Source of the DNA: Ectocarpus siliculosus
Taxonomy: Eukaryota; Sar; Phaeophyceae; Ectocarpales; Ectocarpaceae
DNA length: 64,000 nucleotides
NCBI GenBank assembly: GCA_000310025.1
Contig: FN649735.1
Span: forward strand, 2,407,389-2,471,388
Direction: 5' to 3'
How positions within the stretch are numbered: the first letter of the stretch is position 1; each line of letters opens with the position of its first letter. The notes beneath the pieces were generated by a model. That model was given only the letters and a program-made list of their open reading frames with translations. It had not been told where the DNA came from and made no database searches. Position numbers and translations under genes: made by a program. Of the stretch, positions 24,176 to 51,420 are shown in pieces.

Positions 24176-25590
24176 ACTCACCGCTGTGTTCGTCTCTGTC
24201 GTGCTGTGTGGCACAGACAGCAGAGTGTGTTGCAGGTTGGTTGCGGCATGTCTTTTGTCTTTCGAGGCAGGGGGCTCCGCAATGATGATTGCACATAACG
24301 CCAAAGAGCGATTCGCGTCTCCCCTGAGGATATCATGCACTCCTGTCACACCTGCCCCTCTCTGCCTGCTGCCCTTGACAGAGGTCTAGACTAGTCAGAG
24401 GTCTGTCACAGCCTGACCATCTAGGCAAGGTTCACCAGGGTATGGTATCCTTCGGGCGAAGAATCCATGTTTCTGTTCTTGGCGAGAATGACTGGGGAAG
24501 ATCACGACACCGGCTCTCCTGCAGAGAGAGAGCCGGCAGGGGCAACGAACGAGCGTAACGGAGTCTTCTAAGTCCTGTGGACGGCCATGGGGCAGACGTT
24601 TCAGGGTCGCAACGTTGTTTCCTGGATGGACATCTATGGGGATCCACCTTGAGGCAGCGATAAGTGAGTGCCAGCTTCGCATTTGTGAATCCATTCACCA
24701 CATTATTTTGCCTCCTGGGCGGGTCGGGTGCAACATGTCCACGTTTACATGTACCACATGATTCAACTGCTATATAAACCAGATGTACGTGGATAGCCTG
24801 GTGATACCTGGTCGAGAAGGCACGGCCGCCGTTGCTGCAACCCCTCGGCCTCGAATGGTAGATTCAGATGTTTCACGCTGCGGCCTACATAGTGTGGCAG
24901 GGATCCAAAACTACTCCATTTACCCGTGGCAAGATCCACGTGTAGGAATGCTCTTCAGACTACACACATGGGCTGCTGTTGCTCCTGGTGTTCACCATCC
25001 GTGTTCTGCGTATTATCATACAATACCACCTTACAACGAACTCGCAAGGCCGGCTTTCCGAGTATTCCTCTTCTCCTCCGCGGGTGCATGTAGAAAAGCG
25101 CGACGTTTGATTCATGTTCTGCGTAGCTTTCCAAAACATGACCTCACGTATGCATAGGACTGGAACCAACTTTCTGGTGCGACTATCTAGGGATGGATCG
25201 AGCTTGGAAGATCCCATCCACAGGGGTTTGTGGTGCTACTGTACTCTGAAACAATAAAAATTTGGCGCACACTGCTGTCGAGGCTACCTCTCCCCAGCAC
25301 CCATGACGTTGAACCAAGCCTTCCTTCTCGTCTCCATTCCTACACGGCGGCATTTGACCAACAGCAGCGCATTCCTTTGCTTGCTTCGCGCGCGGCCTCG
25401 ACTCTTACCAACGCCGTGGAGGGTTGCCACAGAATAGCTACATACTAACACACTAAGAGTTATGCTGGGTGATCCGCTGCACTCACCACGATCAGGTGGG
25501 GGTCAAGGAGCCGCCCGCCGCCATATCCTGTGGCCGTCTTGTTTTGCGTCGTCGTGTAGCGGTAAACTGATGATACCCTTTACGTCCATC
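24172..25590. other. Spacer between the Tat-SF1-like gene and the duplicated block
   Basis: This probably includes the promoter of the Tat-SF1-like gene. The longest frame, 24783-25157 (+), has no recognisable domain and no matching exon phases. No transposon ends were recognised. Confidence 0.4.
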
Positions 25591-25790
25591 TCCCGATGAG
25601 GTCCGATGAACCTGCCGCCCTGGGAGTTGAAAACAGCAACTTATTTCTAAACGTTGCTTTCCCAAGTAGGAAGGGGCAGGCGCCTCAGCGGAAGCAGCCT
25701 TGTAGAAGACGGCGTATCCCGTCCCCACAATCCCCTCGCCGCGCGGCCTTGCTTGCCCCTCGTCCTCCCCTCGTGCGCCTGCCGAACCAG

Positions 25791-26910
25791 GCAGTGGTGG
25801 CCCTGCACTCGGCCGTTCTGGGCAAAGATTTCCTCCTCAACTCGTCCGGCGGCAAGCCGGTAAGTTTTCTGTTGTCAGCAGATGGTATCCATTGAATAGA
25901 TCAAGCGGCTGATCTGGAATAATGCACCAAGGATTTGTTGAGGATTTGTTGAGTCGTCTATATCATGTCGTTGTAGCACTGGTGGTGTTGGAGAGATGAA
26001 CCGGGCGTCTGCCGAGCAGCTGCTGCTGTCTTGTATTTGGTTTTCAGGAATCGTCAGGCATGAACCGTGGGTTTCATCATGAAGGGAAACCGCGCGAGTC
26101 GGGGAAGAACTGTTGACTGGTTGTTCCGACTGAACCGTGACCTGACCCATTTTGTTCGGGTCGCGGCCTGACGTGCGGATCGGGTTTGGACGCGTGGAAA
26201 GACACGTTAAATACGCGGTTCAGATTCCGGTATGTACTTCAAAGCGGAATCGTTTCTTGAGCTTGCACTACCCGCGCCTCTCGACGTGTTTGTAGAAATG
26301 TTATCGTTGGCAATCACAGGGGGTTGGGGTTTTCACCACTGAGGCCATCGGGGCCCAGGAGGTGGCAGCGGAGCTCGAGGGCGAGGCCATCGATTTTACT
26401 GTGCTGTGCCTCGGCAGAGTCGATACCCTCGCCCTGGAACTCGGTCATTACCTCCTGGGCCGCGATTCCCTTCTGGCGAACGCTCCATGCCCCTGTGATT
26501 GTCAACGTTCTTTCTTCCGCACAAGTTTCGCAAGGTACGGGTGGGGCACGCGCGTGGGATGCACTGTAGTGTGAGCGTGAGGGAAAGATAGGGACATACC
26601 TTGAGTTGTCTCTCAAGGTTCCTACACTCTGCGTAACGGAAAAGACGGAAGGGGAACGATGCGATTTGCTTACACGCCATCACCCAACTACCTGTTGTCT
26701 CTACCCTGCGGTACTTCTGTACTCCCAAAGCTTTCGCATCCATGTTGTATGTTTTCGATTGGTAGTGCGTGCTACGCGTACAACTCAGCTGATGCCTCCG
26801 GGGCAATCCCCGTCCGTGCTTTGAAAAACATGCGTGTAGAAGACGAGCAACGTGGCGCCCCCGGTATCCACGTACTTGTCCTTGGGCAGTTACGATGTTT
26901 TGAAATACTG
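25791..26910 (+). pseudogene. Decayed paralogue of the SET-domain gene
   Basis: The segment 25791-25859 (peptide VVALHSAVLGKDFLLNSSGG) is the counterpart of exon 41164-41233 of the intact SET gene. It has one A fewer at the start (GCAGTGG against GCAAGTGG), which breaks the frame that joins in the intact gene. The next SET exon is represented at 26314-26397 (GVGVFTTEAIGAQEV, where the intact gene has GHGVFADEAIPADTL), but it degenerates after the GEAIDF segment and turns into an inverted copy of itself. Intron-like sequence downstream (around 26730-26910) still aligns with 42540-42700 of the intact locus. The exons carrying NHSCEPN and the post-SET cysteines are absent. It is therefore a truncated pseudogene copy. 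Confidence 0.75.
26304..26492. repeat. Inverted duplication of a SET-domain exon
   Basis: The left arm 26304-26397 reads GGCAATCACAGGGG on the plus strand. The right arm, about 26398-26492, begins on the minus strand with GACAATCACAGGGG and continues with the same exon: GIAAQEVMTEFQGEGIDSAE on the minus strand against GAQEV...LEGEAIDF on the plus strand. The arms meet near 26397 with essentially no loop. They have diverged noticeably from each other. The right arm is closer to the intact exon 42225-42350 (shared GEGIDSAEAQ). Confidence 0.75.
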
Positions 26911-27144
26911 TAGCGACCCTGACCCTTCCAACCAACTACTGAGTGGGTGTGCGAGCATTACATATACTCGGACCCTGTCCATCAACAATGGTGTCTGGTG
27001 GTGTTCAGCGTGGCGCTGCTCTTAGAATAGTGTAAGCCACTCGCCGAAGTGTACACATGTGGTGTGCTCGTCCAAGCGCTTGTGTCCCTCTGTTGCTGTA
27101 TGTCGCTGTGCTGCTTATTTTACCTTCACAATGTTGTGTTCGTT

Positions 27145-27480
27145 TGAGTGTGGTGCCATTTTGGGGAAGCTGACATCGTGTCGAACTGAGGTGATGTGAA
27201 TACTAGCCTAGCGTCTGCGTCTCGTCGGCGGTCACCCATGCTGTGTTGGGCTTTGCGGTGGCGTGGGTTCGCCCATCGTTTCATGAGGTGGAACGTGTGG
27301 CCTCCTCCTTGCACTGTTTCATCACAGCTGGGTTGGTTGTCGTGTTTCTCTGATTATAGAAAATAACTCCTTAATGTTAGTGTCAGTAAAGCGCAGTGCG
27401 CAGCAATTGCAGAACGCCGGCATTTCTGCTCCGAATAAACAGGTGTTCGCTATGACTATGATATCCGTAAACACTTTGAA
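27145..27480 (+). repeat. Dispersed repeat, copy in left block
   Basis: Similar over about 340 bp to 38318-38660 and 38858-39200, and partly to 37239-37440, all in the same orientation. Shared landmarks include CGTCGGCGGT(T/C)ACC, GTTCGCCCAT(C/T)GTTTCATGA, GTCGTGTTTCTCTG, AAAATAACTC and CACGCCGGCATTT. No coding function recognised. It marks the start of the unit duplicated at 38.1-40.9 kb. Confidence 0.8.
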
Positions 27481-27560
27481 CATTTTGATTGTACGGAAAT
27501 CGTCTCAGATGACTCGCTTTTCCTGCCTGTAACTTTCGTTTTGTTTGTATTTTTCCCATA

Positions 27561-27746
27561 CAGTAGGTGGTTCGATATCGTGGCAACTTGAATAGTGGAA
27601 CTGCCGATATGGTGGCACCACAGTCTCTTGTCACAATCTCAACATTTACAAGATACTGAACCCGATATATCGAATAGTGGCACTGCCCTGAATAGTGGCA
27701 TTTTCTCCTCTTGCCCCTACATGCCACCATATTGGGCCACCTACTG
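27561..27746. mobile_element. 186-bp MITE-like element absent from the paralogous site
   Basis: The left end CAGTAGGTGGTTCGATAT and the reverse complement of the right end CAGTAGGTGGCCCAATAT match at all but a few positions. The flanks are TA (27559-27560 and 27747-27748). The paralogous block at about 39250-39290 runs through the equivalent flanks with no insert, so it serves as a related empty site. The length equals that of the element at 23038-23223, and both begin CAGT. Both contain a TTGTCAC motif, but the two differ in most of the interior. Non-coding. Confidence 0.78.
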
Positions 27747-27913
27747 TACGTGCATTGGCTTTCGAAGCGTGAGGCATCTTGTCGGGGTGGTTTAGTGTCC
27801 ACGTTGAAAAACAGTGTTGACTCATTCTGAGAAAAAATAGTAGTACTCGCGCTCATGTCGTTGCTACAAACGAGCTGTGACCCTTGTCCCGCCCTGCCCG
27901 CGCCCCGCCCATC

Positions 27914-28250
27914 CCTGCACCTGTCGACACTGGTTGCAGTTCGTCGTCCAGTGTTGTCGTCTTTCACCACGACGAGAGCACGGGGTGTGTCCCTGTCGGC
28001 CCGGCTCCTTCGCCGAAACCGAAGTTCCATGGGCACATGAAGAACAGGCTGACGAGACAGATGTCGGCTTTCTGCTAGCCTGTTCTTGCTGACAGGAAGC
28101 CGACGTCTGTCCTGTCAGCCTGTTCTTGGTGTGCCCGTGGTGGAGTGGTTCCGGCGAAGGAACCGGGCCGACAGGGACACAGACCGTGCTCTCGCAATGA
28201 TGAAAAACGATAACTCTGGACGACGAACTGGAACCAGTGTCGACAGGTGC
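27914..28250. repeat. Fold-back: inverted duplication with arms of about 160 bp
   Basis: The left arm, about 27914-28075, starts TGCACCTGTCGACACTGGTT. The right arm, about 28085-28250, is its reverse complement starting from the other end (TGCACCTGTCGACACTGGTT on the minus strand at 28250). Both arms share GTGTCCCTGTCGGCCCGG and AAGAACAGGCTGAC. The spacer is about 10 bases. The paralogous region at 39430-39600 has a single, non-inverted version. Confidence 0.85.
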
Positions 28251-28684
28251 ATGGGGGTGAGTCATGCATAGCTCATGGCGTTGCTTTCGAAATGTTCATG
28301 AAGCCCTGGACATGACGCTCACCGGTTCTATCCCTCTTTCAACCATTCACACTCTTGATGGATGAGCGCTCCACACCGACTTTTGGGGTGCGTTGCATTG
28401 CCTTAAATCTTCAATGCTAGCGCTTCTATCGTCGTTGTTGTTGGTGATGATGATGCTGTCTTGACGCAAGAAACTATGTTCATGTCTATGCAAGACCTCC
28501 GCGTGCATTCTCTTGAAGGCCAAGAAACGACAAAAGTAAGAAATTAAGTGTGTGGTCAGAGGCACACACCCCAAAGAAGAGTGGGTGATTGGAATGAAAG
28601 AAAGTTCCTGCTGGTACAGGGACACTGTTAGATGTCGGACTGTACTTGATGACCCGGAAACACAATACTTGAAAGTTTCCTGGA

Positions 28685-29292
28685 GAGGGACGGTGGCCAA
28701 ACTGGAGATCTACAACTCAAGACACTCTGAATGCAGAGAGGAAAACAACGTACAGGTTTATCTGGTACCGATCTTACCTCACCCCGAGCGCCCCGCCGGG
28801 CTCTCGACTTTTCCCTGTGCATTGTGCCGCTCGGCGGGGAACTGGTCGCTTCGACTTGTCGCCGGGCTGCCGCGGCTTTTGCGCTGGACGTGATCTTTAG
28901 TCGTGGGAAAAAGTAACGGGGACGGTGGGCGTTTGGTGCAACGAGTGTCAGCAGCCTGCGTGCTGCTCATCCCAAGACCGACAAGTTGAAATGGGAAGAG
29001 CAGCACGCAGGCTGCTGACACTCGTTGTGCCAAACGCTCACTTTCCCCGTTACTTTTTCCCACGACTGCAGATCCTCGTCCAGCGTTGAAGCCGTGGCAG
29101 CACGGCGACAAGTGGGTGCGACCAGTTGTCCATCGAGCGGCACAATGCAGAGGGACAAGTCCGGAGCATGGCGGGGTTTCTTGAGCGAGGAAAGACCGTT
29201 ACCAGACAAACCCGTACGCTATTTCCGTGCTGCATTCAGAGTGGCTTGAGTTGTAGAAGTAGATCTCCAGGTTGGCCATCGTCGCCCCTGCG
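28685..29292. repeat. Fold-back: inverted duplication with arms of about 290 bp
   Basis: The arms 28685-28974 and 28992-29292 are inverted copies around a 17-base spacer. The innermost 30 bases are almost perfect (AGTGTCAGCAGCCTGCGTGC and its complement). Outer parts share GAGATCTAC, CACTCTGAATGCAG and CGAGCGGCACAATGC but have diverged by substitutions and small indels. Block 40020-40330 is the single-copy relative. On one strand the shared segment reads EIYFYNSSHSEC (here) or NIYFYNPSHSEC (at 40.2 kb), so it may descend from a coding exon. Confidence 0.87.
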
Positions 29293-29299
29293 GCTAGAA

Positions 29300-29900
29300 A
29301 AACGCCCTGCCGACGCGATGACAGCAGCGGCCGAAATCGGTCTCATTTGGTAACGATCTGATTTGGTAACGTATTGTTTGTCTCTTTTCAAGTCTTGTAG
29401 AAAGTACACATGCAATCGAAGAAAGACCACGGTACCCGTTTGAGAATGTATACCACGTTCGAAGGGGATTATGAAACGGCAAAAAGTATATTGCCCTGCT
29501 TGGTGGCAACAGACAGTGGACCAATGCCTTCGAGTTCCAGAAGAGGTCATAGCGTTCGTGTGTGTGATTTTTGGATAATTGTCTGTTTGCCTTTGTGCGG
29601 TACCTTCGGATATTTTCTCTGTCGACGAAGAGTTCACATTCTTGTGCTTTGATTTTATCGAGAATTTTGACGTCTTGGAACACCCCGCCGCCCTCCTCCG
29701 ACTCTTGGCCGCTTGACCGACAACACTTGGCCGACCGCAGCACACTCCGCAGGTCTCCCATTGCTTGGTGGATGGCGGCATCGAACTGCGCGAGAGGCCA
29801 CGGATGAAGAGCGGTCGCTACTTCGAGGCCATGAGGTGAGTAGCAGCGACGACCAGTTTGTTTTTCAGTGCGTATGAATGAAAGTTTTGTGGTGGCTGTG
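29300..29900 (+). repeat. Segmental duplicate of 40340-40920 with exon relic
   Basis: This aligns with 40340-40920 in the same orientation. Landmarks are ATACCACGTTCGAAGGGGAT, TCTGTCGACGAAGAGTT and GGAACACCCCGCCGCCCTCC. Its end, about 29748-29835, has peptide DGGIELRERPRMKSGRYFEA followed by a GTGAGTAG donor. This is the counterpart of the SET-gene exon ending at 40856 (DGGITLRERPPTENGRYVEA). In this copy no SET exons follow within the next kilobases. Confidence 0.72.
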
Positions 29901-30941
29901 AATGTTATTTTGCAATCGTGAATGCGTTGTTGCCGGCCTCGCAGGTGGGGATTAAAATATGGTCCTCTCTTTGTTGTTGTTGTTGATGCTGCTGCTGCTG
30001 CTCCCTTGTTTGTCGACGGAGCACATGCCGTTGCGTGTCACCCAACAGATATTGAGTGCGGTCGGTTGTTTGCTCGCCATGCTAGGGTTAACGCTTGCTG
30101 ACACTCGCTTTGCAACCGATGTTGTCTGTCGATTTTACAGGAGGTGATGGACACGACAGCCCGACCTGTGCTATCCGTGTATCTGCCCCGTCTATTTCCT
30201 GTTCGTACGATTTGCGTTCTGTTTGGTTGGGTTGTTTTTAACAGAGCGAAAGAAGGTGTGCCGTGACACTGAGAACGGTACCTTGGAGCGAAACGGTAGC
30301 CATACTGGCCATCGTCGCGCGCTTGTTGTTTCATTTGGTTTCCATTCTCTCGCTTTCCTGTCGCCCGTAGTTTGACCTACCCTTCACTCCCGCCCCCTTC
30401 AATACAGCTCTAGCTCTAAATCGTCCGGGGCCGCGTCAAAGGGTTGCGACTGACAATTCTTTGTTGTTGTGGATCCTTTGGTTGTGGGTGTGATGAAATG
30501 ACTTCCTACTGCGTCTTACCGCTCAGGTTCCTTCGTTCCTAGGGGTTTATTCCCGATTCCGTGCCATGCAACCCTCGCTTGGCGGGCGTTGAGAGCTGGG
30601 TGTATCGTTCATGAGGTACGAGACTGCCACGCCGCAGCACATGCAAGGTAAGGCTTGGCCTTGGCCTCACCCTGTTCTTGTTTCACGCTCCTGCTGTGGT
30701 AGTAGAACCTCAGAACCTGCTTGTCTATTCGGCCCCCTGCAACCGTTCGACGAATACCGCTGGACAACAGGGACAGGAACCTCATCACGGCAACAAGGAT
30801 TTTTCATGGACAATCCTGATGGCAATTACTGCGCCGCAACTTTCTTTTATGCTCTTCTTCCCACCCCGCCCTCGCCGTGACTCTTCCCTACACCTTTCCG
30901 CACTGCCTGCGCGCCCCGCTTGCTACGACCTGCAACTACAG

Positions 30942-31160
30942 ATCCAGGTGTTCATCGGGCACCAGAACGACTTGCACTCCGAGGTGGACGCGTGCTTTGC
31001 CCCGAACGCGCAGCACGCCCTGTCGTCCTGTCCAGCCCGGACGACAACCAACGGCATCTACCTGCTGTACACCTGGCCAACGGAAGACGGTAAACTTGAC
31101 ACAAGGTTCTCTCTCAAGGGGCTCTCGTCCGCGGTGGGCGAGGCCATCGCGAGCGCGTGA
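30942..31160 (+). CDS. Possible isolated exon of unknown protein
   Basis: After a CAACTACAG acceptor-like sequence the frame reads IQVFIGHQNDLHSEVDACFA followed by a Cys/Thr-rich segment and YLLYTWPTED. It then either meets a GTAAAC donor at 31090 or continues to a stop after GEAIASA at 31160. The composition looks coding-like and unlike the surrounding DNA. A candidate upstream exon, about 30542-30606, ending at GAG before GTACGAG, would join in phase 0. I recognise no domain, and no start or further exons are clear. It follows the left duplicated block, but no copy of it was seen in the right block. Confidence 0.3.
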   Translation: MQVFIGHQNDLHSEVDACFAPNAQHALSSCPARTTTNGIYLLYTWPTEDGKLDTRFSLKGLSSAVGEAIASA

Positions 31161-31433
31161 ACGCACACGGCGCTGCGGATGGACGCGGGTTTGGAACCGG
31201 GGCAGTGGGTTTTCATCCGGAGCGTTGTGTCTGTTGGTCGCTAAGCTTGTTGTCAATTCCCAGAGAAGATTTGGCGCATTTTCATGTCATGTCTAGTGAG
31301 TGTAGTTCGATCAGCTCGGACGCTCTAAATTGGTCACGATGGAAAAGTTCCTTGCATTCTTGTTCTATCTCTGTCTTACGGCAGCGCTGCCTCTGTGTAC
31401 GTAGTCTGCGGTAGGGTCTCTGGATGCGATTTT

Positions 31434-31461
31434 GAATTTTGAATTTTGAATTTTGAATTTT
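31434..31461. repeat. (GAATTTT)4 tandem repeat
   Basis: Four perfect heptamer units with a partial unit upstream. A second small tandem, about three GGTTCAA units, lies near 31790-31812. Both are simple satellites in non-coding DNA. Confidence 0.9.
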
Positions 31462-31997
31462 CGGCAGAAATCAAAGTCCAGTTCCAAAGTCAGTGCTCTC
31501 GTGCATGTACTCCTTGCTGTATCACTTTATGGATCGCGGTGCCGTCCGCACTTGCACTTGCCTACGTCTTTCTCCCGTCTTTGCGAGCTATGTCAACCCA
31601 GAGGGTTGTACGCTGTGGTTTTCGGCGAGTGCGCTTTTTGTTTTTCACAGTTCGGTAAACCGCGCAAGCACCAAACACCTTCACCGTGAGTGAGGCTTGA
31701 TTTCCCTCAACACTGGCCCTTCATATCCCCCCTCCCCGTCGAAGGAGGTCCCCTGGGAAATGTTTAGTCCCCGGGGTACCGTTGTACAGGGTTCAAGGTT
31801 CAAGGTTCAAGGACATTGTATAAGAACAGTTTTAACGCTGGTTCTGTCGCAATCTCGTTCCCGATCGGGTAGAAATGTTTTGGCCGCCGTCGTAGTTCAG
31901 AAACGATGAAAGGATGGAAGGATGAAATGAACCTCGCCACTTCCGCACGACCCACACATCAACACGGCAGAAATTGTTCAAAAGGTAAGTAGGATGG

Positions 31998-32103
31998 CCC
32001 GTGTCCGGTGAAGCTGTTAAGCCACGAACACGTCCCCCCAGGGTTGCCATCCCTGTCATCAGCGCTGTGCTTGCTGGGACGTGTTCGCTTCACCAGACAC
32101 GGG
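31998..32103. repeat. Hairpin-forming inverted repeat
   Basis: The left end CCCGTGTCCGGTGAAGC, a 10-base interruption, then CGAACACGTCCC pairs with the right end, whose reverse complement is CCCGTGTCTGGTGAAGC directly followed by CGAACACGTCCC. The loop is about 38 bases. Either a small fold-back element or a MITE remnant. Confidence 0.8.
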
Positions 32104-32114
32104 CATTAACTTTT

Positions 32115-32183
32115 GTTGAGAAAAAGCACGATAACCACTAGTCAGCGCTGACTAGTGGTCTAGTGGTTATCGTGCTTCTCAAC
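32115..32183. repeat. Hairpin-forming inverted repeat with nested palindrome
   Basis: GTTGAGAA...GCACGATAACCACTAG pairs perfectly with its reverse complement at 32160-32183, apart from a three-A bulge. The inner CCACTAGTCAGC and its complement form a second perfect 24-base palindrome. It lies only 11 bases from the hairpin at 31998-32103. Confidence 0.88.
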
Positions 32184-34501
32184 ACAGACAACTGACCCAA
32201 ACATTTTGAGGTCATCAGGCGTGATGGGCGTTTGTTATTCCGGGCTGCTCGTGGCGAAATGCACAGCAGCCAGCAGCAAGCAGTGTTTGCAGCCCCCAAA
32301 TTCGGCGCGCATGTTTCCTCTCGTTTGGTTCCCGAAGATGTCAACTGCTGTTCATCTTTTCGCCGTGTGGGTTATTTCCTCCTGGTCCTATGCGGCGGAC
32401 TTGAAAGTGAGGGCTACCACCAAGGAGGCATAGCGGGCCTGGCATTTTGCTCCGATGAGTTTGATTTTGGGGGGCGGGAACGAGTCGTAGCAAAGCGGCC
32501 TGGTTGTTACACGACCACACCACACATGTGGAGAAAAAACAAAAATTATTAAGAAAAAAAAAAAAAAAACCAACAGAAGAAACATATCGGATCATTTGCT
32601 GGGTCTCCGCACGGTCCAATCATCGGTTTGACTCTTCGTCTCCTCGCGAGATGGGTACGACACGCACAGATTTGCGCGCGGCGCACCAGCCCCGTCCGCC
32701 CTCTGTCTGATGGTGGCAAATGAGAGAAGAGGCGCGGCAATCTCCGGAGAATCCCGTACCGCAGCAAAACATTTTTGCGACACAGCAGACCGGAGACAAC
32801 AAGGAAACCACATGCAGCAGACCTCCTGCTGTGTACATGTCGGCGGTGCCCATGTGGGCTGGTGTGGATATACACGTGCTTGTACGCCGCCACAGATAGC
32901 CTGCGGCAGGTCAGCGTGCTATCGTTTCCTCTGGCAGTGCTGAGGACAGGAGTGGTGGGCGCCTGGCTGTTGTGTTGGCTTGAGACGACGGAGTGTGTGC
33001 ATGTGTGCATTTGGGGCCAGATGCATCCAGCTGACTGGTGAAATTCAAATTGCCTTCTTTGCTCGATGCTGTTGGTCCTCTCTCTCTTCCGTTTGTTCTC
33101 TTTTCTTCTTACCTTCTTCTTGTTTTCATGAATGCGGCAGAGAGTTGCTGGCAAGACGGCTGTAGCATTCGTCCGCTGTGTGCTGTAACGTGTCATGCCC
33201 AGCACACGCCTGGCTGGCAAGCTGTCTAGCCGCGATGTGATATTGCAAAAACATGATGAGACGTGCCTCCCTGCTGGTTGTATTTTCCATGGCATGGGCG
33301 AGGTGTGCGAAACAGTTTCTCCTCATCAGGTCTCATCTAATTCTGTGTCCCGTCTGTTGTGTGCATTCGTTCATGTTCATGATATCTTCACGTCGCAAAG
33401 AGCTCGCCCTTGTTGTGTAAACACGCAGGAGAGCGACAGAGCCGATTTGTCCAGTACTACAGCAGTATCTCACGAAAATAACACCGCGTACTGGCCGTCA
33501 CCCCGCTGTTTACCTGTGACCGCTGAAGGTGTTTTGCTTTTTGCTTTGCCGCTAGCCATGGCTTGGGAATTGGTCTGGGGCGAGAGAATTCTGGAGAGCC
33601 ATCTGCAGGGAAGGGGTGTGGTAAAATCTGTTTAGCTGGACACGGAGCAGAGAGAAGATAGAGCCAGCTCGGCAAACATGAACGAAGGTAATAGTGCGCT
33701 GCTACATTACAGGCGTGTTGCGTTTGCAAACACCACATGGATATTGTATGCATACTGGTATCTACCATGCTGTTGTATCCTTCTGTGTCCGTTATAGTTT
33801 TGTAACGGATGGTACAGCAGTGGTGAGTAGTGGTGTCGTCGTCTGTGTGCTTACCTAGCGCGCGCGCGCGCGGAGGGGGGTGCGTGATTTGTTTCAGAAT
33901 GAATACAACTCTACCCCCAACTTTGAAAGTGTCTTGTCTTCTCCGAGCAAGTAAGTGCTGTTGCTTCCCCACCTCCTCACAATTTCCACCTTCCCCTCTT
34001 CTCTCTCCTTGCCAACTCGCGTTCACCGGCCAGCACCAGCGAGTGCTGCCTTCTCTGCAGACGACCGCCAGCGGCACCAGCGACCACGGACTGCCTGCAC
34101 AAGAGGCACACTTCCACGCGCCTTCCGTCTCGTCTGTTGGGTCTGCTGGGTCTGCTGTGGGTCTGCTGGTCTACTGTAGATGTGAGTTGTATAGAGCCCA
34201 GAGATTTTTTTTGTCTCGTCATGTACGATGTTTTGTGCTTGTCGACGGAGCTATTGCTGTGTCGATCGACGAAAGCGAGATAGAAACCACTCGTGTTTGG
34301 ATAGCGCGGGCGCCGTGTTGAGCACGAGGTGAATGCCGCTGGTCCCGAATCTTGTTTAGTTTCAATAGTTTCAAGTACCAGCGTGTGGGTTGGCTCGGCC
34401 GTTCCCAAAAGATTTCTCGAGGGTGGCCATGCGTACCCTGATCCCCAAGTGTGTGTGGTTGCCTCACGCAGCTACATGTCTACTATGGTTTCCACGTGTA
34501 G

Positions 34502-34604
34502 TCGACTGCGCTCGCCCCCTCTCCCTATCTCGACCCACGCCCCAGCCAGCCGACTGCGCTCGCCCCCTTTCCCTATGCATATCTCGATCCACGCCCTAGC
34601 CGGT
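34502..34604. repeat. Two-copy tandem repeat of about 50 bp
   Basis: CGACTGCGCTCGCCCCCT begins each copy, followed by (C/T)TCCCTAT, then ATCTCGA(C/T)CCACGCCC. The second copy carries a small insertion. Confidence 0.8.
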
Positions 34605-35815
34605 CCATCCCCCCACCTGCCCAGCGGGCCTCAGTCACCTACCAGATATGAGACGGTATTTAACGTACGTTGCGGACAAAGATATTTTCCGTACATATGT
34701 ACGTTAGACAACCTCCTGGACCATTTTTTCAAAGCTCGACTACGCCAAAGCGAAGAGAGTGGTGGATGCCGAAGACCGCGGCGTTCGAACCGTCTCGTCT
34801 AGAGGTTGTCTCGTCGAGATCTTTTTGTCGTCAAGAGTCCGAAACGTTCTCTCTAGAGGTTTGACCGCTGTTTTAAGGTATAGAAAACATTTTTCTGTTG
34901 AAGATGGATTCGTTGTGCGCGTAAGTTTTTTCCGCCGCTATTCGACGGATGCAATTATTGTTGTGTACAAGTGGCGCGCGCAGGATGGTGATGACTCTTT
35001 TTTTTCTCTCTCTAAAAATACAACGAATTATTCTCTATGTTGTCCACAGACCTCTTCTTCTCGTCGGAAAACATGAGTTGTAATTTATCGATCTCGATCA
35101 ATTTCCGCAGATAGTTTTATAAATACTTTGGAATTGAAGCTCCGTTCAATCTACAATAGGATGGACACCCCGATGCCGGGGTGGCTGTGTGTCTATTTAT
35201 TTAGTCTGCCACTAAGAGGTGCGGGACACCCCTCTGCCACCTGCCCGGCGGAAGCTTATTCCGCCGCACTTTGACGTTACATTATATTATCTGTTTATTA
35301 GCTACTGTTACGCATGTGTGCGCGCGCCTCGCGCTTGCTTGTATGTATTTTTCCTACAAGTAAGAAGTATTTATTTGTTGACCCCTTTCAACTCCTTTTG
35401 AATATTTTTTTGCTGTGTGTGTGACCTGTTTTCTTTTTTTTTCTATTATCTACTTGTCTCGATGTATATCCGGCACACCAGAGACCACCTTGTTTGCCTT
35501 TTGAACTGATTGGGTTTAGCAGTCGTCTCGTTGGTGTGCTGTTTGTACACAGCAGCATTAGGCCGCCGTGGTTGTGTAGCGTGACACAGCACCGTGGTGT
35601 GTGTTGTGTGACGCACGTGTGCGCTGACGATTGACTGGCTTTCTTTTGTTTGGAATGCATCATCACCTGGCTGTCTCTGATCCGTGCACCGGCGGATGAT
35701 GTATGTATGTTCATCCTGTGCAGCGAACGCAGCCGAATGCAACAGGAATTAAAGCACGATTAACTCGTTCACCCAGAAATTGATCGATGATACGCATGCG
35801 AATCTTTATCGCGTC

Positions 35816-35844
35816 TGTTGTTGTTGTTGTTGTTGTTGTTGTTG
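35816..35844. repeat. (TTG)n microsatellite
   Basis: About nine uninterrupted TTG units, in non-coding sequence. Confidence 0.92.
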
Positions 35845-36324
35845 TCTTCACATTAATGAACCGTTCCGGTCTCCGCTGGTGCATATTCCATTTGACCCGG
35901 TGATCCCGTTTCCCTGTCTCTTTGGTTCCATCCACTCTTGACAGAGCCATCCACAACCATGTCCAGTCCCCCCGCTGCCGGGGCTTCCGGGGCAGCAGGG
36001 GCTTTAGGGGCATCAAGGCAAGGGCACTACAGATGGACACATCTCCTACGCACGTCGAGATTATTTTTTTTTAGCTGTGTCGTGTCGTGCTGTACTTCAT
36101 TTTTTGTGCAATTGGCACTAAAAAAGTATAGCCCACACGCAAGTCATCATCGCTGATTTATCTACGGTATTGGTAGTGTTGCAACATGGGCGGCATTAGT
36201 GTCTGTGGGTAACGTTTCTCGAAGGGTAAATGACGCGTGAGGGTATTCCCTGGTCAAAAAGCGACGCGGCTGGGTACGCACGTTTCATCAGCATGACCTA
36301 ACTGGTTGGTAGACACCCACTTTG

Positions 36325-36875
36325 AACCTTCCACGTCACAAAATAGCCCGGAGTTGTCCTTGCCGCGGCTACTTTTCCCTGCATTTTTTTTCCTGATTTT
36401 CGGAAGTGTACCCAGCCCTGACGGGAGATGGGTGTCTTCCGTCGGTTATTTTCTCCGCAGAAATCACTCTCCAAAATATAAACCTTCCAGCTCCAAGCAA
36501 ATGATAGCATCCGACATCCAAGACACACTCTTCCATGATTGAACACAACATGGTTGACAAGTCGACTGAAACAGGAGTGGTGCTAAGGTAGGGGGGTGCA
36601 TTCTTGGGGGGTGAGATCTCACACGTTTGGGGAAAATGAGGAATACGTAGACCTGTTTCGGTGATGTTACGGTGGTTTTGTTTGGAGTTGGAATATTCGT
36701 GTTTTGGTGTCCTTTCGTTGGAACAGAGATTGATTTCTGAGGAGAAAACGGCCAGTGGAAGGGACCCATTTCCCGTCAGGGCCGGGTACATTGCCGGAAA
36801 TCAGGTCTCATTTTGCAGGGAAAAATGGCCACAGCAGGGAGTACTCCGAGATGTTTGGTGATGCGGCAGGTGGAA
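36325..36875. repeat. Fold-back: inverted duplication with long loop
   Basis: The left arm, about 36325-36515, and right arm, about 36665-36875, are inverted relatives. The reverse complement of the right arm shares TTTTTCCCTGCA, CCTGATTT(T/C)CGG, GTACCC(A/G)GCCCTGACGGGA and TTTTCTCC(G/T)CAGAAATCA with the left arm. The loop is about 150 bp. Arms have several indels. Non-coding, unlike the left-block fold-backs in sequence but similar in form. Confidence 0.8.
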
Positions 36876-37238
36876 AGTAGGCGTAGACCAATCAGCTAAG
36901 CTCATGTCACGCTCATGAAGTGTACGTATCCGGCTGAGTCGGTTTTCGACCAGGGTATGCCCTAACGTGTTGTTTACCCTTCCCCGAAATATTCCCGACG
37001 TAGGACATTTCACGCGACTCGCATTTTATAGAGATCGGGTACCTGGGGTAGCACACAAAGTAAATGATCCTGAATCGCAACAATGACATCCGAGTTTCAA
37101 CACCTCAAGTCTGAGCGACTCAGAATAGTAAATTGCGCTTGTCCAACCATGTGCTTAGGTTTTCGAAGTTTGATGTATAGTAGTGTTTGCATGTATCTCG
37201 TGCGCTGTTTGTTTTGGCGTGAACCCCTGTACGGGAAG

Positions 37239-37440
37239 AAGCTTGCGATTGCAACCAAAATCTGCTGATGTGATTATGCTCCTACCCTCTACACCACGTC
37301 GGCGATATACCCTTGCTGTGTTGGACTTTGCGGTGAGTTGGTGGCCCCTATCGTCTCCTGAGACTACACGTGCGGCCTCCTTCCTCATTGCTTTGTTGCA
37401 GCAGCTAGGGCGGTTGTGCTTATCTTCACTGCATAGGAAT
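37239..37440 (+). repeat. Dispersed repeat, partial diverged copy
   Basis: A weaker match to the repeat at 27145, 38318 and 38858: GCGATTGCAACCAAAA, GCTGTGTTGGACTTTGCGGT and GCGGCCTCCTTCCTCATTG are shared. It breaks off before the conserved 3' part. Confidence 0.6.
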
Positions 37441-38317
37441 AAATCCTCGCCGTTTCGTGCTAGCGTTGCGGCAGTCCGGATTGTCGCAATTCCTTGCGCT
37501 CGCTGGTGTTCATGCTCCCGACTGTTATCAAGCGTTGCCTGTGGTAGGTACTCTCACAAGGTAGGGCCGTGTTTGGGGATGTACATTATGTGTAGAGCGG
37601 GGTGGTGGGTTCTTGCACCACGCCGTCCCCGTATTGATTTGTTTTGGGGGACTCTGTCCTTGGTCAGTTTACGATGTTTGAAGGGCGGTAGCGATCCCCC
37701 TAGCGGCAGGTTGAGAGATTGCATACACCCAAAGCAGCGGAGAGTACATCATGACCCATCCTACAGCAGTTTTTTTTCTTGTGTTCCAACGTTAGTCTCC
37801 GACAATCGCCCCCCCGTGCCGTTTATCACGGCTCTAGATGATGATCTGAATCATCTCTAGATGATGATCTGAATCATCCCTCTAGGTGGGTGGGGTGTGT
37901 TGGATCGGTCGGCGGCACTGTACGTCATCGGCGATGGTTGTTTGTTCGAACGGTCATCCCAGGAGACTGAAACAGCGGTCAGCACTGACTGAGGATCTTA
38001 TATCCGTCAAGAGGATCAACCTCGCTAGACTAGCCAACTCTTTGTAGTCTAGCATGACCAAAAGACGCTCTCTGTGCCTCGCTGGTTAGTCTATTATAGT
38101 GTTGTTGCCCTTCCAACCAACATGAGTGGGCGTGCGAGCATTTCGTAGCTCGGACCCTGTCCACTAACCATGGCGTCTGGTCGTGTTGAGCGTGGCGCTG
38201 CTAGTGTAAGCCACTCACCAAAGTGTACATGTAGTGCGCTAGTCAAGCGCTTGTGTCTCTGTGTTGCTGTATGTCGCTGTGCTGTTTGTTTGACCTTTCA
38301 CGCATGTTCCTTTTTTT

Positions 38318-38660
38318 AGTGTGATGCCATTTCGGGGAAGCTCGCCATTGCAACCAAAACTGCTGACGTCGATTAACTTAGGTCATGTGAATATATCTTT
38401 TGACCGGTTGCGTCTCGTCGGCGGTTACCACGCTGTGTTGGACTTTGCGATGAACTGGGTTCGCCCATTGTTTCATGAGGTGGAACGTGTGGCCTCCTTG
38501 TTGCACTGTTTAATCACAGCTGGGTCGGTTGTCGTGTTTCTCTGCTCATAGAAAATAACTCTTAACGTACGTGCCAATGAAGCGGCAGTGCGGAGCACGC
38601 CGGCATTTATGCTCCCATTAAACGGGTGTTCGCTATGACTATGGTATCCGCAAACAAGGA
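38318..38660 (+). repeat. Dispersed repeat, copy B1
   Basis: Same family as 27145-27480. It is preceded by about 200 bp (38105-38317) that also aligns with 26930-27144, so the duplication includes upstream sequence. Confidence 0.8.
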
Positions 38661-38857
38661 GAGCCTTGTATTGGTTGTGTAATGTGTCATGGGGTGGAGT
38701 GTTCTTCAAATGTACACCGTACCCCTCGTGGCAAAGTTTTTGGGGCGTTTGACCTGTCCCTGTGATGTGTGCTTCGGTGCCCACATCACCCAGTTGCCCC
38801 AAGTTGCTGTGTGATTTCTTTTTCCTTACAAACGTCCAAGTGTTCTGTTTGTTTAGT

Positions 38858-39200
38858 GTAATGCTATTTAGGGGAAGCTCGCCATCGCAACCAAACTGCT
38901 GACATCGCGTCTAACAGAGGTTATGCAAATAAGGCCTGACGCTCTGCGTGTCGTCGGCGGTTACCCATGCTGTGTTGGACTGTGCGATGAACTCGGTTCG
39001 CCCATCGTTTCATGACGTGGAACTTGTGGCCTTCTCGTTGCAATGTTTAATCACAGCTGGGTTGGTTGTCGTGTTTCTCTGCTTGTAGAAAATAACTCCT
39101 AACGTTAGGCCAGTGAAGCGGCAGTGCGCGAAATGCAGCACGCCGGCATTTATGCTCCGGATAAATTGGCGTTCGCTATTTCTGGCATCCGCAAACATGA
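38858..39200 (+). repeat. Dispersed repeat, copy B2
   Basis: A tandem neighbour of copy B1, about 540 bp downstream in the same orientation. From here the right block continues in the same order as the left block after 27480. Confidence 0.8.
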
Positions 39201-39204
39201 TGAA

Positions 39205-40760
39205 CGTTCAAGTGTTTTGGCTATCGCTTCTGATGACTCTTCTGCATATATCTTTTCTGTTTTTTTCCATCTGCTTTCGGTTTCGGAACGTGGGACATCC
39301 TATCGTAGTGATGTCGTGCCCCTGCTGAAGACCTGTGTTGACCCATTCTGAGATGAATGTAGTGTTCTTGCTCATGGTCGTTGTTACAAACGAGCTGTGA
39401 CCCTTGCCCCCCCCCGCCCACGCCTCCATGCACCCCTGCACCTGTTGACACTGGTTGCAGTGCGTCAAGCGTGGTCGTGTTTCGGCCATGCGAGAACAAG
39501 GCGTGTGTGCCTATCGGCCTGGTTGCTTCACGGAAGCCGGGCGCACACGGCCACATGTTCAATACAAGGACTGGAAGACTTTCTTTTGCTTTCTGGGGGT
39601 GAGTCATGCAAAGCTCTGGGGTTGCTTTCCAATTGTTCATGAAACCCTTGACATGGCGCTCACGGGTTCTATCCCCTCTTCAACCATTCGCGCTCTTGAT
39701 TCCACTCCACACCGACTTTTGCGGTGCGGCGCATTGCCTTCATCTTCAATGCTAGCACTTTTTTCGTCGTTGTTGTTGTCGGTGATGGTGCTGTTGTTGT
39801 ATGTTCATGTCTATGCAAGACCTCCGCGTGGATTCTCTTGGAAGGCCAAGAAACGACGAAAGTAAGAAATCAAGTGTGTTCAGAGGCACACACCCCAAAG
39901 AACGGGGGGTGTTTGGAAAGAAAGAAAGTTCCTGCTGGTACAGGACACTGCTCTTAGATGTCGGACTGTATTTGATGGCCCGGGCACACACTCCTATACT
40001 ACAAGTTTCCTTGGGATGAGCAGCACGCAGGCAGCTGGCACTCGTTGTACCAAACGCTCACGTTCCCCCCGAATTTTTCCCACGGCTACAGAGAATCCTC
40101 TAGCGTGTACGCCGCCGTTGCCGGACGACAAGTTGCAGGGAGCAGTTTCCCGCCGAGCGGCACCTCTCAGAGGCAGAAGTCCGGAGCCCGGCGGGGTTCT
40201 GGGAGTGAGGTAAGACCTGTACCAGACAAACCTGTATGCTATTTTCCGCGCTGCATTCGGAGTGGCTTGGGTTGTAGAAGTAGATGTTCAGTTTGGCCAC
40301 CGTCGCCCCCTCGGCTAGAAAAACGCCCCTGGAACCTCTTCACTCGCCGACGGCAGCGGCCGAAATTGGTCTGATTTGAAAATGTGTTTGTTCTCTTGTT
40401 AAGTCTTGTAGAAAGTATATCTGCGATCGAAGAAAGACCACGGCACCCGGTTGAGAGTATATACCACGTTCGAAGGGGATTATGAACGGCGATAAAGAAA
40501 TGACCCTGCTGGGTGGAAATAGACAACAAGTGGGCCAATACCTCCGAGTTCCAAAAGAGGGTTTATGGCATTTGCGTGTGTGTGTTTTGGGTAATTCTCT
40601 GTTTGCCTTTCTTTGTGTGTTTTGTTCGGATGTGTTCTCTGTCGACGAAGAGTTGACATTGTTTTGTTTTGATTCTATCAAGAATTTTGACGTCTTGGAA
40701 CACCCCGCCGCCCTCCTCCGACGCTTGGCCGCCTGACCGACAACACTAGGCCGACCGCCG
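39205..40760 (+). repeat. Right copy of the segmental duplication (single-copy form)
   Basis: This aligns piecewise with 27478-29750: GTGACCC at 39397, the CACCTGTTGACACTGGTTGC stretch at 39435, TGCAAGACCTCCGCGTG near 39815, CACACCCCAAAGAA near 39890, and TCGTCGACGAAGAGTT-like sequence near 40645. Here the segments matching the two fold-backs of the left block occur once only, and the MITE at 27561 is absent. The order and orientation are otherwise the same, about 11 kb apart. Confidence 0.75.
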
Positions 40761-40766
40761 GCACAG

Positions 40767-43665
40767 AGCGCGGATCACCCGTGGCCTGAAGGATGGCGGG
40801 ATCACTCTACGGGAGAGGCCACCGACGGAGAACGGTCGCTACGTGGAGGCCATGACGTGAGTAGCAGCGACGGCAAGTTTTTTTTTTTTGCGTCAGTGTG
40901 AGTGAAACATTTGTGGGGGCTGCTGGTTGCAATCGTGAGCAATGTGTTGGTATTGATTAAGGATGGAGATACTCGTGCCTTACGCAGAATTTTGTTATTT
41001 AAAAAGCGCTGCTGTCCACAGTAGGAATGAGTAGGCGCCTCAGCGGAAGCAGCCTTATAGATAGCGGCGTATGTCGTCCACACTATCCCGCTGCGGCCTC
41101 ACTGAAAATTCCTCAACGGGACCTCCCCCCCCCCCCCCCCTCTTGTGCGCCCGCCCGCACCAGGCAAGTGGTGGCCCTGCACTCGGCCGTTCTGGGGGAA
41201 GACTTCCTTCCCTTTTCGTCTGGCGGCGAGCCGGTAGGTTTTTGTTGCTGTGAGCATGGTACCACTACATAGCTCAAGCGGCTGATGATCTGGAGTATTC
41301 ACTCACCTGTATCAAACTGTATTTGTACAATAGCGCGTGTGGTGTTGGAGAGATGAATGAGTTGGATTACTGGCGGGGAGCCAGAGCTAATTGAGGCTGT
41401 GAGAGGGCCGCCGTCGCAAAGTTGAATCAGCACGTGGTACGCGTATGGGTCGAATTATTCCACAACATTTCTGAAAGTCTTGTAGCTCGGTGCCACCATC
41501 CCCTCTCCATCACAATCAGATGGAAGGCGGGCCCCACTCCCCCCTTGGGAGGGACAAGATGCTTCGGGTGTCCACGGTGCTGAGGATGGCGAGGGACACG
41601 CGGGAGAGCAGCAACGACGAAACGGCGGACAGCAGATTTAGCAGAATGGCAGACAACGGGTTTAAGTTGTGCGGTATTTACGTGACAGGAGTCTACCTGG
41701 CGTCGCGGCTCTGCCTGCGCATGGGGAAGTCGGAGGTGCAGGTGCGAGGAAGAGAAGAGAGAGATATCTTAGATATGAGGCGCACAAACGTCTTTGCTTG
41801 GCTTTGTGTTCGCCAGTTTGGTCACGGGTCTGGTCTCTTCTCTTCGGAAGCCGCGGGTTATACACCTGTCTGTTGGTTGTGTATGTTCGTTTTCAATGCT
41901 CGTCGTTATTCTTGCTGCAAGTACGAGGCACTTATTTCATTTCGCGGTGTACAATAAATAGCACCAATGCAAACACCTGCAAGGTTTTTCGTTTTACAGT
42001 ATGCCTAAAAGTTTTTTTTCATGATTTGCTCTGGCTCTCTCTCTCTCTCGGCCTCTGCCTGAAATCAAGGCGTGCCTTTTTGTGGTTCGCGTGTGACCTC
42101 GGAGTTTTTCGTGTGAAACCCATGTTAATGTTGAAAAATTCCTAATGCAGAAAGAAACGCTGCAACACACACGCCGCCTCACCCGTGCCTCTCGTAATTT
42201 TCGTGGAAATGTTGGTAATCACAGGGACACGGTGTTTTCGCCGATGAGGCGATCCCGGCCGACACTTTGATCTCAGACTTCTACGGAGAAGGCATCGACT
42301 CTGCCGAGGCCCAGCAGCGGGCAGATCATTACAGGGACGTGGGGTTTTATGTGAGTCTGAGGGCTAGAGTTGTTTCTCTCTCCAGCGCATGGCTTCTTTT
42401 CTGCATAGCAAAAAAAAGAGATGGAAGTGGAACAAACGTGTTCTGCGGACGCGGGTGCTTCGTTTGCGAGATGCGCTGTCACCCAACTTATGTACGTGGC
42501 TGCTCTACCCAGTGGTGGACGTGTGTACATACGCGCAAAAGCTTTTGCGCGCATGGTGTGTTTATTGGAACAACAGTGCGTGCTACGCGTACACCTCGCC
42601 TGGCGTCTCGAAAGCAAGCCCCGTCCGTGCTCTAGAAAGCACGTGTGTAGAACGAGAGTAACGCGGCAACCCCCGTATTCAAACACTTTCAAGTCCAAGC
42701 AGGGTTGAAGTAGAGGTGTTATTTGCCCTTGTCACTACTACCTCGCTTTGCTGCCAAACACATGCTGCGCACGTCGACAGCGGCAGCAGCAACAATACCT
42801 AACGTCATGGTGGTTTTGTTCAAATCGGGTCGATTGGGGTACACCGATTCTTCAGTCAGCCTTCCACCCCCTCTCTCCGCTCCCGCCCCGCCAGCACCAC
42901 CATTTATTTCCCTTTCCCGGACTCCCCCGATCTCATCGCTGCCGCAGAGAAGCATCGTTAAAGTTGGGGGGGACCCTGGGGAGGACCCCTTGTACGTGGA
43001 CGTAATGAGGCACGGGTACCCCGCTCGTTTTTTTAACCATTCGTGCGAGCCTAACGCCTACCTTCAAACGGTGAGCAGCGTACAACGCTTCCAACAGTAC
43101 AGATAGACTGAATGGATATCTATTATCAGTCAGCTAGATGGGATGGGTGATGCGGTGTCGAGTGTTCCGGGAGCATTATGTGAACGTGTTGGGAGTCCAC
43201 TGGGTGATTCCACAAGGGAGGGTCAGCCCGTAAACGCGGTTGATGCCCCCCACCAAGGAGATTACATAAGCACGGCGCCGTTCCGGGGGACTTTAATTGC
43301 GCGAAACACTGCTGTCTATGTTCAGGGGTCGGCCGGTTGGCGCGGAGGGTGCAAGAAACAAACACGAACACCCCTTTTCCCCTACACAAGGCGCGACTGG
43401 TGCACACGCCTCTCTCGTCTTTTGTAACCTACCCGAACGCCTTGTTTTCGCACCCACCCTTTTGTTGAACACTTGAACACAGATGGTATGCCAGAAGGGG
43501 GATCTCATGTACAAGATCGTGTGGTTCTGCACTTCGCGTGACACCGCGGAGGGCGAGGAGGTTTGTTTCTCCTACCCCGCCCTCCACAGCCAGAGCTCCG
43601 ACAAAGAAGAGCCGGATTGCAATTGCCGCTCGCCATCGTGCCGCGGGAAGATGTTTCAACGTTAA
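40767..43665 (+). CDS. SET-domain methyltransferase, C-terminal exons
   Basis: Exons 40767-40856, 41164-41233, 42225-42350, 42948-43070 and 43483-43665 (TAA) join in frame through GT-AG introns; the last three junctions are in phase 0. SET-domain enzymes transfer methyl from S-adenosylmethionine to lysine, often on histones. All core motifs are visible: GHGVFA (GxG, AdoMet site), SDFYGEG (YxG), ARFFNHSCEPN (catalytic pseudoknot NHSC), then GEEVCFSYPALH with the catalytic-site Tyr, and a post-SET CNCRSPSCRG zinc cluster. The first exon (GLKDGGITLRERPPTENGRY) has no recognised domain, and its 5' boundary is uncertain because an in-frame stop lies just upstream. No ATG was found, so the N-terminus is missing from this model. 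The region upstream is a segmental duplicate of 26.9-29.9 kb. Substrate cannot be inferred. Confidence 0.82.
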
Positions 43666-45741
43666 ATAACAGGACGTTGAAGAGAGGGGAAAACGGGGTT
43701 CTGGTGTGATGTACGTGTATGCTCACGTTTCTTGTGTGGGTGTGCGGATGTAATGCGCATGTGACAGGCATTTATTTGTGTTGTGCCGATTTTGTGTAGA
43801 GAGGGAGGAGAATGTGTGAGAGAGGGACTGCAGCCGGAGGGAACAAAATTAGTAGTACACCACAACAGCTCTCTCTGTGTTTGCGGGCGAGGGTGGAATT
43901 CCTTTCAGTGACTATTGACCACGACATCGAGTAAGTGATGTAGCGTTTCCAGCGGCAGCAGCAGCAGCAGCAGCAGAGCAGCAGCGTCTGGGCTTGGAGT
44001 GGGCGTTGCTGCGCTGGTGCTGTTTCTACTGTTGTTGTGGAAGCTCCAATTATTTTGTTCGTTGTTGTGTACCTAAATAGCGTGTGCAGCTATACAAGTT
44101 TAATTTACTTTACGCGTCACCGCCGCTGTACCCGCATGGTCGGAAAAAAAAACTGCGACGTGTTATTATGTGTTAGGGTTTGTGCTACAGAGATGCTTTG
44201 GTGTGCATGCGAACGCGGTTGGACGCAAGAGCGCAGATGGTGAGAGTTAAGTGCCGAGCCAATGTCAGGTACAAAGGTTTGGGGCGTTTAGTTGATTGTT
44301 TTTTTTGCGGATCGACATTTATTTGCAAGAGAAGAAATAGTATCTCAACTTTGCCATCGAAGAGGAAGGTTCTTGTGCGGTCTCGCCACCGGTAGGTTCT
44401 ACCTACCCACCTTTAACTTCGCCGTGTCTTATCCCTTGAGATGCATATATATATGGTGTAGTCTACAAGTCAAACGACACGACATTCGGAGGTGAGGGGG
44501 GGCGATCCGATTCAAGAAAAAACGGATTCGTTGGCGTCATCACACACACTCATTATCTGTTTCTTGGTCGATACTGCAGCTATGCATACCACTTTAGTCC
44601 ACTCTGTGTCGCGTCATCGGAGCTAGCTCTTACAGACCTTTCAACATCCATCCAAGATAATGGTGTTCGTTGTTTTAAGTCTCACGAACAAAAAGATTAC
44701 TACTGTAGACTACATGCTCTACCTCCCGCGTGATCAAATCTGTCTGCACTGTTTCTATCTCGACAGCTGCAGACACATGATGAGTTTTCTTCACAGAGGC
44801 AGACATTGAAAAAGAACCAAGCAAGGCAGAGAGGAAAAAACGCCGTAATAACTGGCCTAGTAAGTAGCTCAAAAACGGGTCTTGGCACCCACCCATCGAT
44901 GATCCCAAAGCGACGGTTTGATACTCCGCGTAAGTCCACTTCTAAGGATTGTCCCCAACACTATTTATTCACACACACAATCGACTGCGGAATTCCGTCA
45001 CATCCCACAACCAAAGAGCCGTCCCCAACCCATCGTTCGGAAAAGCTCGCTTGTTCCTTTGTTGAAGACACTGAAACGCACTCAACCACCGGTCGCATAT
45101 TGCATGTTCACATACATGCGGTGATCCACAGCTAGCTAACAGTAGCTACGAATCAACAATCAATGTAGGCCAGGCAGAGAGTGAAAGGGAGAAAACAAAA
45201 CAGGAAAAATACAAGTAAGTCTCACTTGCTCAAACAGAGAAACTCGACAACACCATCGTCAGTCATCATTACTGACCATTCTTGATTGAGCGAGAAAACA
45301 ACAAACCCCCAAAATGCACCTCATCCACCGGTTCGTCTACAACACATCATCTGCTAACCGGTTTGCTGGTAGGAAGCCGCATCCGTCCGCGTACTAGAGC
45401 TGGATCTCGAAAGCAAAGCCACTGGAGGTTGACCAATACCCGCTCTTGTAGTCATGGAGCTTCCAGAGGACAGACGTGGAAAGAAGGCGACCCCCCGCCT
45501 CCACTCGTTCGGTAGCCTACAACGTACGGCGGGGTACCTCTTGGACCCCTTCCCCCCCCGTGCAGTCGCCCCGCCTCCATCCGACGGCGTTGACAGCTCT
45601 TTGACCAAGCTACGGATATCAGGCGGGGCGAGGGCGAGCCGCTGGTGCTGGTGCTGGTGCTGCCTGCGCTCGCCCCCCCAACCGTTGCCACCCGTCAGAA
45701 TATCGCTGCCGCTGACTAGTCTAATGGTTTGATTTCGGCTT
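43666..45741. other. Spacer, no gene recognised
   Basis: This follows the SET gene and includes a short CAG-rich run near 43953-43987. Short frames on both strands (for example 45354-45608 minus) have low-complexity composition and no domain. If the M16 gene on the minus strand were complete its remaining exons should appear here, but no M16 motif was found. Confidence 0.5.
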
Positions 45742-51419: not shown

Positions 51420-51420
51420 G

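Follow-up and report, generated by a model that had tools for sequence, protein, structure and literature searches.

Two paralogous blocks related to a SET-domain gene lie in the window, i.e. the whole stretch of 64,000 nucleotides of Ectocarpus siliculosus DNA that was analysed (C10:2407389-2471388), and within this pair only the left block carries segments accompanied by a reversed copy of themselves. How did these fold-backs form, are they peculiar to this block, and could their transcripts act as hairpin RNAs (hpRNAs) on related genes? These questions are addressed below using the window and searches of the 189-Mb, 492-contig genome assembly. The EsV-1-7 repeat, which is abundant in brown algae, has at least 150 scored matches in this assembly (880 candidates) and none in 14 control genomes, as would be expected for a brown alga close to Ectocarpus.

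Fold-backs of the left block and their counterparts

The left block displays three fold-backs, H1, H2 and H3, at 26304-26492, 27914-28250 and 28685-29292, as given in a preliminary description of the locus; their aligned arms cover 88, 162 and 284 bp and are 75-84% alike. The H1 sense arm (26305-26393, plus strand) corresponds to the start of SET exon 1 and its acceptor region, and the antisense arm (26420-26507, minus strand) to SET exon 1 copied in reverse, with 75.0% identity over 88 bp. The H2 sense arm (27913-28074, plus strand) includes most of a candidate exon at ~27940-28079 and is 84.0% identical over 162 bp to the antisense arm (28093-28254, minus strand). In H3, the antisense arm (28689-28974, minus strand) is the extra copy and contains a candidate exon (28778-28894) with a donor-like GTAAGA; the sense arm (28992-29283, plus strand; 84.2% identity over 284 bp) is collinear with the right block and has GAAAGA at the donor position. 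The gap is 8 bp between the H2 arms and 17 bp between the inner arms of H3, and, compared with the right block, the extra arm is the downstream one in H2 and the upstream one in H3. Another candidate exon, located 5' of SET exon 1 (25797-25861, plus strand), is single-copy and without fold-back.

The same segments are single and non-inverted in the right block, where the counterparts were found at the positions previously proposed: the candidate exons corresponding to H2 (39461-39598) and H3 (40092-40209) and SET exon 1 (42225-42350), all on the plus strand. Zero inverted repeats of at least 20 bp were detected in the right block (38000-43300). The right gene has two further SET exons on the plus strand, exon 2 (42957-43070) and exon 3 (43477-43662), the latter with a cysteine-rich, post-SET-like end, and all three are open. 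Once joined, they match PF00856 with 62 bits (cut-off 22.4) and also match solved histone methyltransferases such as KMT2A. Only one of the three SET exons, exon 1, was found in the left block, as fold-back H1.

The segments duplicated in H2 and H3 may themselves be exons or include one. The H2 segment is preceded by an acceptor-like CAG, ends at a donor-like GTGAGT and keeps an open frame of identical phase in five copies, i.e. the right copy and family loci L001, L005, L008 and L010. This is moderate evidence that it may be an exon, as the right copy is open in all three frames and L005 and L010 in two, these last two loci being nearly identical. In the left block, the donor-like GTGAGT starts at 28257, 3 bp past the H2 antisense arm, so that one spliced exon could hold the entire hairpin. 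The H3 segment may likewise include an exon. Indeed, the right-copy candidate is flanked by an acceptor-like CTACAG and a donor-like GTAAGA; of the two left arms, the antisense one retains this donor and the sense one has GAAAGA in its place, L001 having GTTAAG, and a similar open frame is found in both left arms as well as in the right copy and L001, the L008 sequence being ambiguous. Both candidate exons were defined from splice consensus and open frames, and drawn while viewing the fold-backs.

All three fold-backs are long inverted repeats able to form double-stranded RNA, their predicted RNA folds going far beyond those of dinucleotide shuffles (z -11 against 200 shuffles for H1, -28 against 100 for H2 and -53 against 20 for H3). 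The right-copy counterpart of H3 exhibits no excess stability over shuffles (z +0.65).

Fold-backs in the SET family and their position relative to exons

Members of the SET family were found at C10:1.82-1.85 Mb, at C10:2.12 Mb, at several places on C26 and on C161. The preliminary description regarded the fold-backs as confined to one of two paralogues, which holds within the left/right pair and fails across the family, since fold-backs also occur in a C10 array (L004, C10:1823.5-1831.3 kb), in the C10:2.12-Mb copy (L002) and in the C161 copy (L010). H1 is common to the left block and L002, which lies ~300 kb away on the same contig in inverted orientation and has one arm interrupted by an insertion. 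The L004 array is degenerate and contains eight fold-backs found by an inverted-repeat search blind to exons, plus three more inverted pairs that each link adjacent fold-backs. A ninth fold-back, carrying exon 3 at ~1827 kb, was recognised only because its exon copies match and its arms align over a short length. In total, 9 of the 11 sense exon copies of the array have an antisense partner, none being detected for those at 1827551 and 1831188. Two pairs of array fold-backs, h1824/h1826 and h1825/h1828.1, look like copies of older ones. A minus-strand gene built from the antisense arms of the array was considered and rejected, the exon order being wrong.

The SET exons are broken, missing or stop-bearing in the left block, L002 and the array. 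L010 carries an exon-1 fold-back with arms 85.9% alike in addition to a single exon 1, and its SET exons 1-3 are open as far as a stop codon late in exon 3, so that this gene may be working. A fold-back beside three largely open SET exons indicates that decay is not required for fold-backs. No near-gapless fold-back (arms of at least 40 bp, gap of at most 120 bp, E at most 1e-6) was found in the loci with open SET exons, namely the right gene, the C10:1.85-Mb gene (L001/L003; 1,093 of the letters of L001, at 7623-8715, are Ns), L024 and L025. Upstream of both the right copy and L001 lies an inverted element whose arms are further apart (gap 254 and 181, respectively). Below, a family gene is called intact when its SET exons are open, a term that says nothing about the remaining gene.

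The rarity of such structures was estimated from ten regions of 9.9 kb spread over eight contigs and hand-picked at round coordinates (99.0 kb in total), and from the window outside 25001-30200 (58.8 kb). Neither set contains a near-gapless fold-back, so that the comparison is 10 in 89.9 kb of family loci versus 0 in 157.8 kb of background, bearing in mind that the family loci were picked post hoc and that the ten fold-backs are not independent. Six of them belong to L004 and one each to L007 and L010, the last two being H2 and H3; H1 falls below the E-value cut of the background searches and rests on direct detection and arm alignment. Left out of this count were three NB-ARC loci, with one fold-back between them (in L028), L022, with one, and L021 and L023-L025, with none. 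The L007 fold-back sits in a family-associated element, off any known exon. When spans of up to 2,500 bp are allowed, inverted repeats appear in 3 of the 10 background regions (two in L012, ten in L013 and one in L018), and a further three are present in the window (26 bp at 32134; 36221-36982, gap 254; 50743-51646, gap 451). The rarity therefore lies in the combination of long arms with a small gap.

The position of the arms relative to exons was assessed by placing the sense arms randomly within the collapsed locus. In the array, 6 of the 8 arms found without knowledge of the exons lie on SET exons (expected 1.6, p 0.0011), and 5 of 6 when the copied types are dropped (p 0.0014); the unguided arms of h1824 and h1826 are intronic and enclose the exon between them. 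Longer, hand-centred arms all lie on exons (8/8, expected 2.0, p 5e-6). In the left block, all three arms fall on exons, whether unguided (expected 0.6, p 0.006) or hand-centred (expected 0.63, p 0.007), a result that hinges on the H2 and H3 exon definitions since these were drawn while viewing the fold-backs; counting the SET exon alone, the score is 1 of 3 (p 0.14). Globally, the fold-backs of the SET family tend toward exons, and neither template switching nor the production of hpRNA alone explains this tendency.

Origin and possible role of the fold-backs

Template switching, repeatedly at work, had been put forward in the preliminary description as one of two possibilities, the other being a source of hairpin RNA, and it is the best-supported origin of H2 and H3, whose arms are closely spaced. 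In comparisons with the right copy and L001, the two H2 arms are sisters (site patterns 10:4:1, FastTree local support 0.90), as are the two H3 arms (9:3:0, local support 0.91), so that both fold-backs arose in cis within the left lineage. Branch lengths of the sense and antisense arms (0.093/0.111 for H2, 0.113/0.087 for H3) do not plainly differ. In the comparison with the flanks, arm identity is 83.2% for both fold-backs versus 80.9-87.7% between left and right blocks in three flanking stretches, which dates H2 and H3 to about the time when the left and right copies separated, or shortly afterwards, and no extra constraint on the arms is needed. The proposal does not extend to all three fold-backs arising in the left copy; as L002 also has H1, the latter is taken as older than H2 and H3.

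The reading that we prefer, and to which we give an even chance, is thus that the left block has decayed and belongs to a SET family whose individual exons, with some adjoining sequence, gained neighbouring inverted copies. In this reading, H2 and H3 arose in cis, as the arm trees show, and the molecular process that we infer is either template switching over a short distance or fold-back replication. The fold-backs of the other family members, mostly decayed copies, would chiefly be by-products of the birth and death of the family; if transcribed, they would yield long hairpin RNAs. Two observations sit awkwardly with this by-product view: template switching has no evident reason to favour exons, and L010 has a fold-back though its SET exons are largely open. 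Furthermore, in h1824 and h1826 the antisense arm clusters with the C10 gene whose SET exons are intact rather than with its own sense partner, so that a simple cis origin does not fit every fold-back.

The most serious alternative, although doubtful, is that the fold-backs are hpRNA genes, whose transcripts would fold and be diced into small RNAs silencing SET paralogues. The tendency of the arms to fall on exons, the portion in common with mature mRNA, agrees with it, as do the very stable folds of H1, H2 and H3. Likewise, among 11 SET-exon fold-backs compared (H1 of the left block, that of L002 and nine of the L004 array, with H2, H3 and C161 left out), the antisense arm is nearer to an intact gene in nine, as expected of a guide-bearing arm; these 11 are not independent, and the score becomes 6 of 8 when copy pairs are counted once by hand. 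The best antisense 21-mer of H3 has 0 mismatches, and that of H2 has 2, to both the right-copy region and L001/L003, and the best one of H1 has 1 mismatch to exon 1 of the L001/L003 gene, whereas 30 letter shuffles of H3 and of h1825 compared with the right copy gave no match with fewer than 5. The searches also located Argonaute at a single position in the genome and RNase III as two pieces, all six Piwi-domain pieces found being located at C2:6872705-6877263 in an assembly whose gaps may hide others; for Ectocarpus, PMC12867755 likewise reports only one Argonaute.

However, the best H3 and H2 21-mers match the right copy at ~40010 and ~39434, outside the candidate exons, and would therefore be absent from spliced mRNA. 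H1 is the only left fold-back that closely matches a paralogue exon, and this exon is part of the C10:1.85-Mb gene. As for the right gene, 0 of 71 H1 21-mers come within 3 mismatches of it. Similarly, 10 of 12 arms have no 21-mer within 3 mismatches of the C26a gene, and 11 of 12 none within 3 mismatches of the C26b gene. Identity between arms is no higher than that of the flanks and, across the whole of exon 2 and its flanks, array arms are only 61.5-72.5% alike (5 pairs). Mismatches of the G:U type are more numerous in the expected direction (103 vs 71, favouring the plus strand, over 12 non-independent fold-backs), a bias that strand-biased mutation would also produce, and the C161 fold-back goes in the opposite direction (2 vs 10 by gene strand). 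A known RNA family or described microRNA family was rejected, since no Rfam 15 family reaches its gathering score in L004, L002 or L010 and the four microRNA-model matches with E <0.01 in the window at 25000-44500 are all under the gathering score. The position of the best H2 and H3 21-mers and the weaker exon test with unguided arms make the hpRNA reading less likely. Its strongest form, in which SET members, above all the L004 array, would now be exon-by-exon hpRNA loci repressing SET paralogues, independently of the fly and plant systems, appears unlikely.

Import of the inverted exon copies from another paralogue, through homology-driven template switching between inverted family members, would account for the grouping of the h1824 and h1826 antisense arms with the C10 gene, and the inverted L002 copy on the same contig would offer a partner. 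The left H1 antisense arm also matches exon 1 of the C10 gene at 72 of 90 positions, compared with 75% between its own arms. Nevertheless, the H2 arms, and likewise the H3 arms, are mutually closest. Moreover, the H2 segment is 61-68% identical between paralogues versus 75-88% in the flank just downstream, which also speaks against import and makes it improbable; the flank downstream of H3 is 61-81% identical between paralogues.

Palindromes are prone to deletion, and the right copy could have lost one arm of each of three ancestral palindromes, H1 being indeed common to the left block and L002. This is very improbable because, in the H2 and H3 trees, the duplication postdates the separation of the left and right copies, and a single H2 segment is present in each of L001, L005, L008 and L010.

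Fold-back transposable elements are present in the genome, the palindrome of control locus L028 being dispersed over at least 40 places (314 candidates). A dispersed fold-back transposon or MITE can hardly be the source of H2 and H3, whose arms bear candidate gene exons: among the matches, copy number is low and no copy lies at an unrelated site. The H2 query retrieved only H2 and the right block, the H3 query retrieved family places on C10 and C26, and longer queries for parts of either brought in family copies only, these copy counts being lower bounds as the search skips very common words.

Finally, fold-back chimeras are a known long-read error, but a recent assembly or read artefact has next to no chance of being the explanation, given arms that are 14-26% divergent and the occurrence of H1 at another locus, where one of its arms is interrupted by an insertion.

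Comparison with known systems

The fold-backs of the SET family share features with several described systems. The papers listed by a search of open-access journal literature include no account of fold-backs over exons of SET genes in brown algae. Regarding Ectocarpus microRNAs, a 2015 study (PMC4513859) found no evidence for an origin from protein-coding genes; hairpins derived from SET exons would be a concrete candidate for such a route from coding gene to microRNA in a brown alga. Should the hairpins prove silent, the leaning of the fold-backs toward exons would still be an unexplained and testable mutational pattern.

As in the Drosophila hpRNA loci Nmy and Tmy, which derive from target duplicates (PMC10292708), an inverted repeat has arisen here from a changing gene family with members elsewhere. 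Unlike Nmy and Tmy as described there, separate exons each have their own fold-back, and the system is known from its sequence alone. The left block also resembles the small-RNA loci generated by inverted duplication, with an inverted gene fragment whose arms are related to another gene, but its arms are of 88-284 bp, with several in tandem, and they too are known solely from DNA. Among brown algae, the ROCO genes, for which exon shuffling is described in PMC11378527, likewise form a family evolving through changes of single exons, whereas the exon copies are reversed here, the word "inverted" occurring 0 times in the main text of that paper. The SET-domain proteins dealt with in PMC13076208, two families of which are specific to brown algae, are another case of a SET-domain family in a brown alga. 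The fold-backs also resemble the hairpin-making template-switch mutations documented in PMC8794818, which similarly consist of a local reverse-complement copy next to its source with a short gap; unlike those mutations as presented there, the fold-backs of the SET family are recurrent within one gene family and tend toward exons.

Element upstream of the SET units

A family-associated element, which takes the inverted form in some copies, lies upstream of SET units: at 36221-37156 of the window and, among the other loci of the family, at L001 2302-3285, L005 3584-4371 and L007 7750-9050, the last being inverted with arms of 92% identity.

Dispersed elements and an insertion

Within the decayed left copy, the inverted-repeat search of the window detected a MITE-like element (27559-27748) with 27-bp terminal inverted repeats, whose sequence matches many other contigs in the genome search. 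The fold-back element of an NB-ARC control locus (L028 2406-2877) is dispersed (40 places scored, ~83–89% identity).

At 2880-3430 of L002, a locus with another SET-family copy, the sense arm of the shared exon 1 fold-back, H1, is interrupted by a ~270-bp insert, apparently with a short target-site duplication.

Other repeats of the window

An inverted repeat of 98.7% identity (50743-51646) flanks a run of N and carries open frames resembling repeat elements, and an exact 92-bp tandem duplication occupies 58970-59152.
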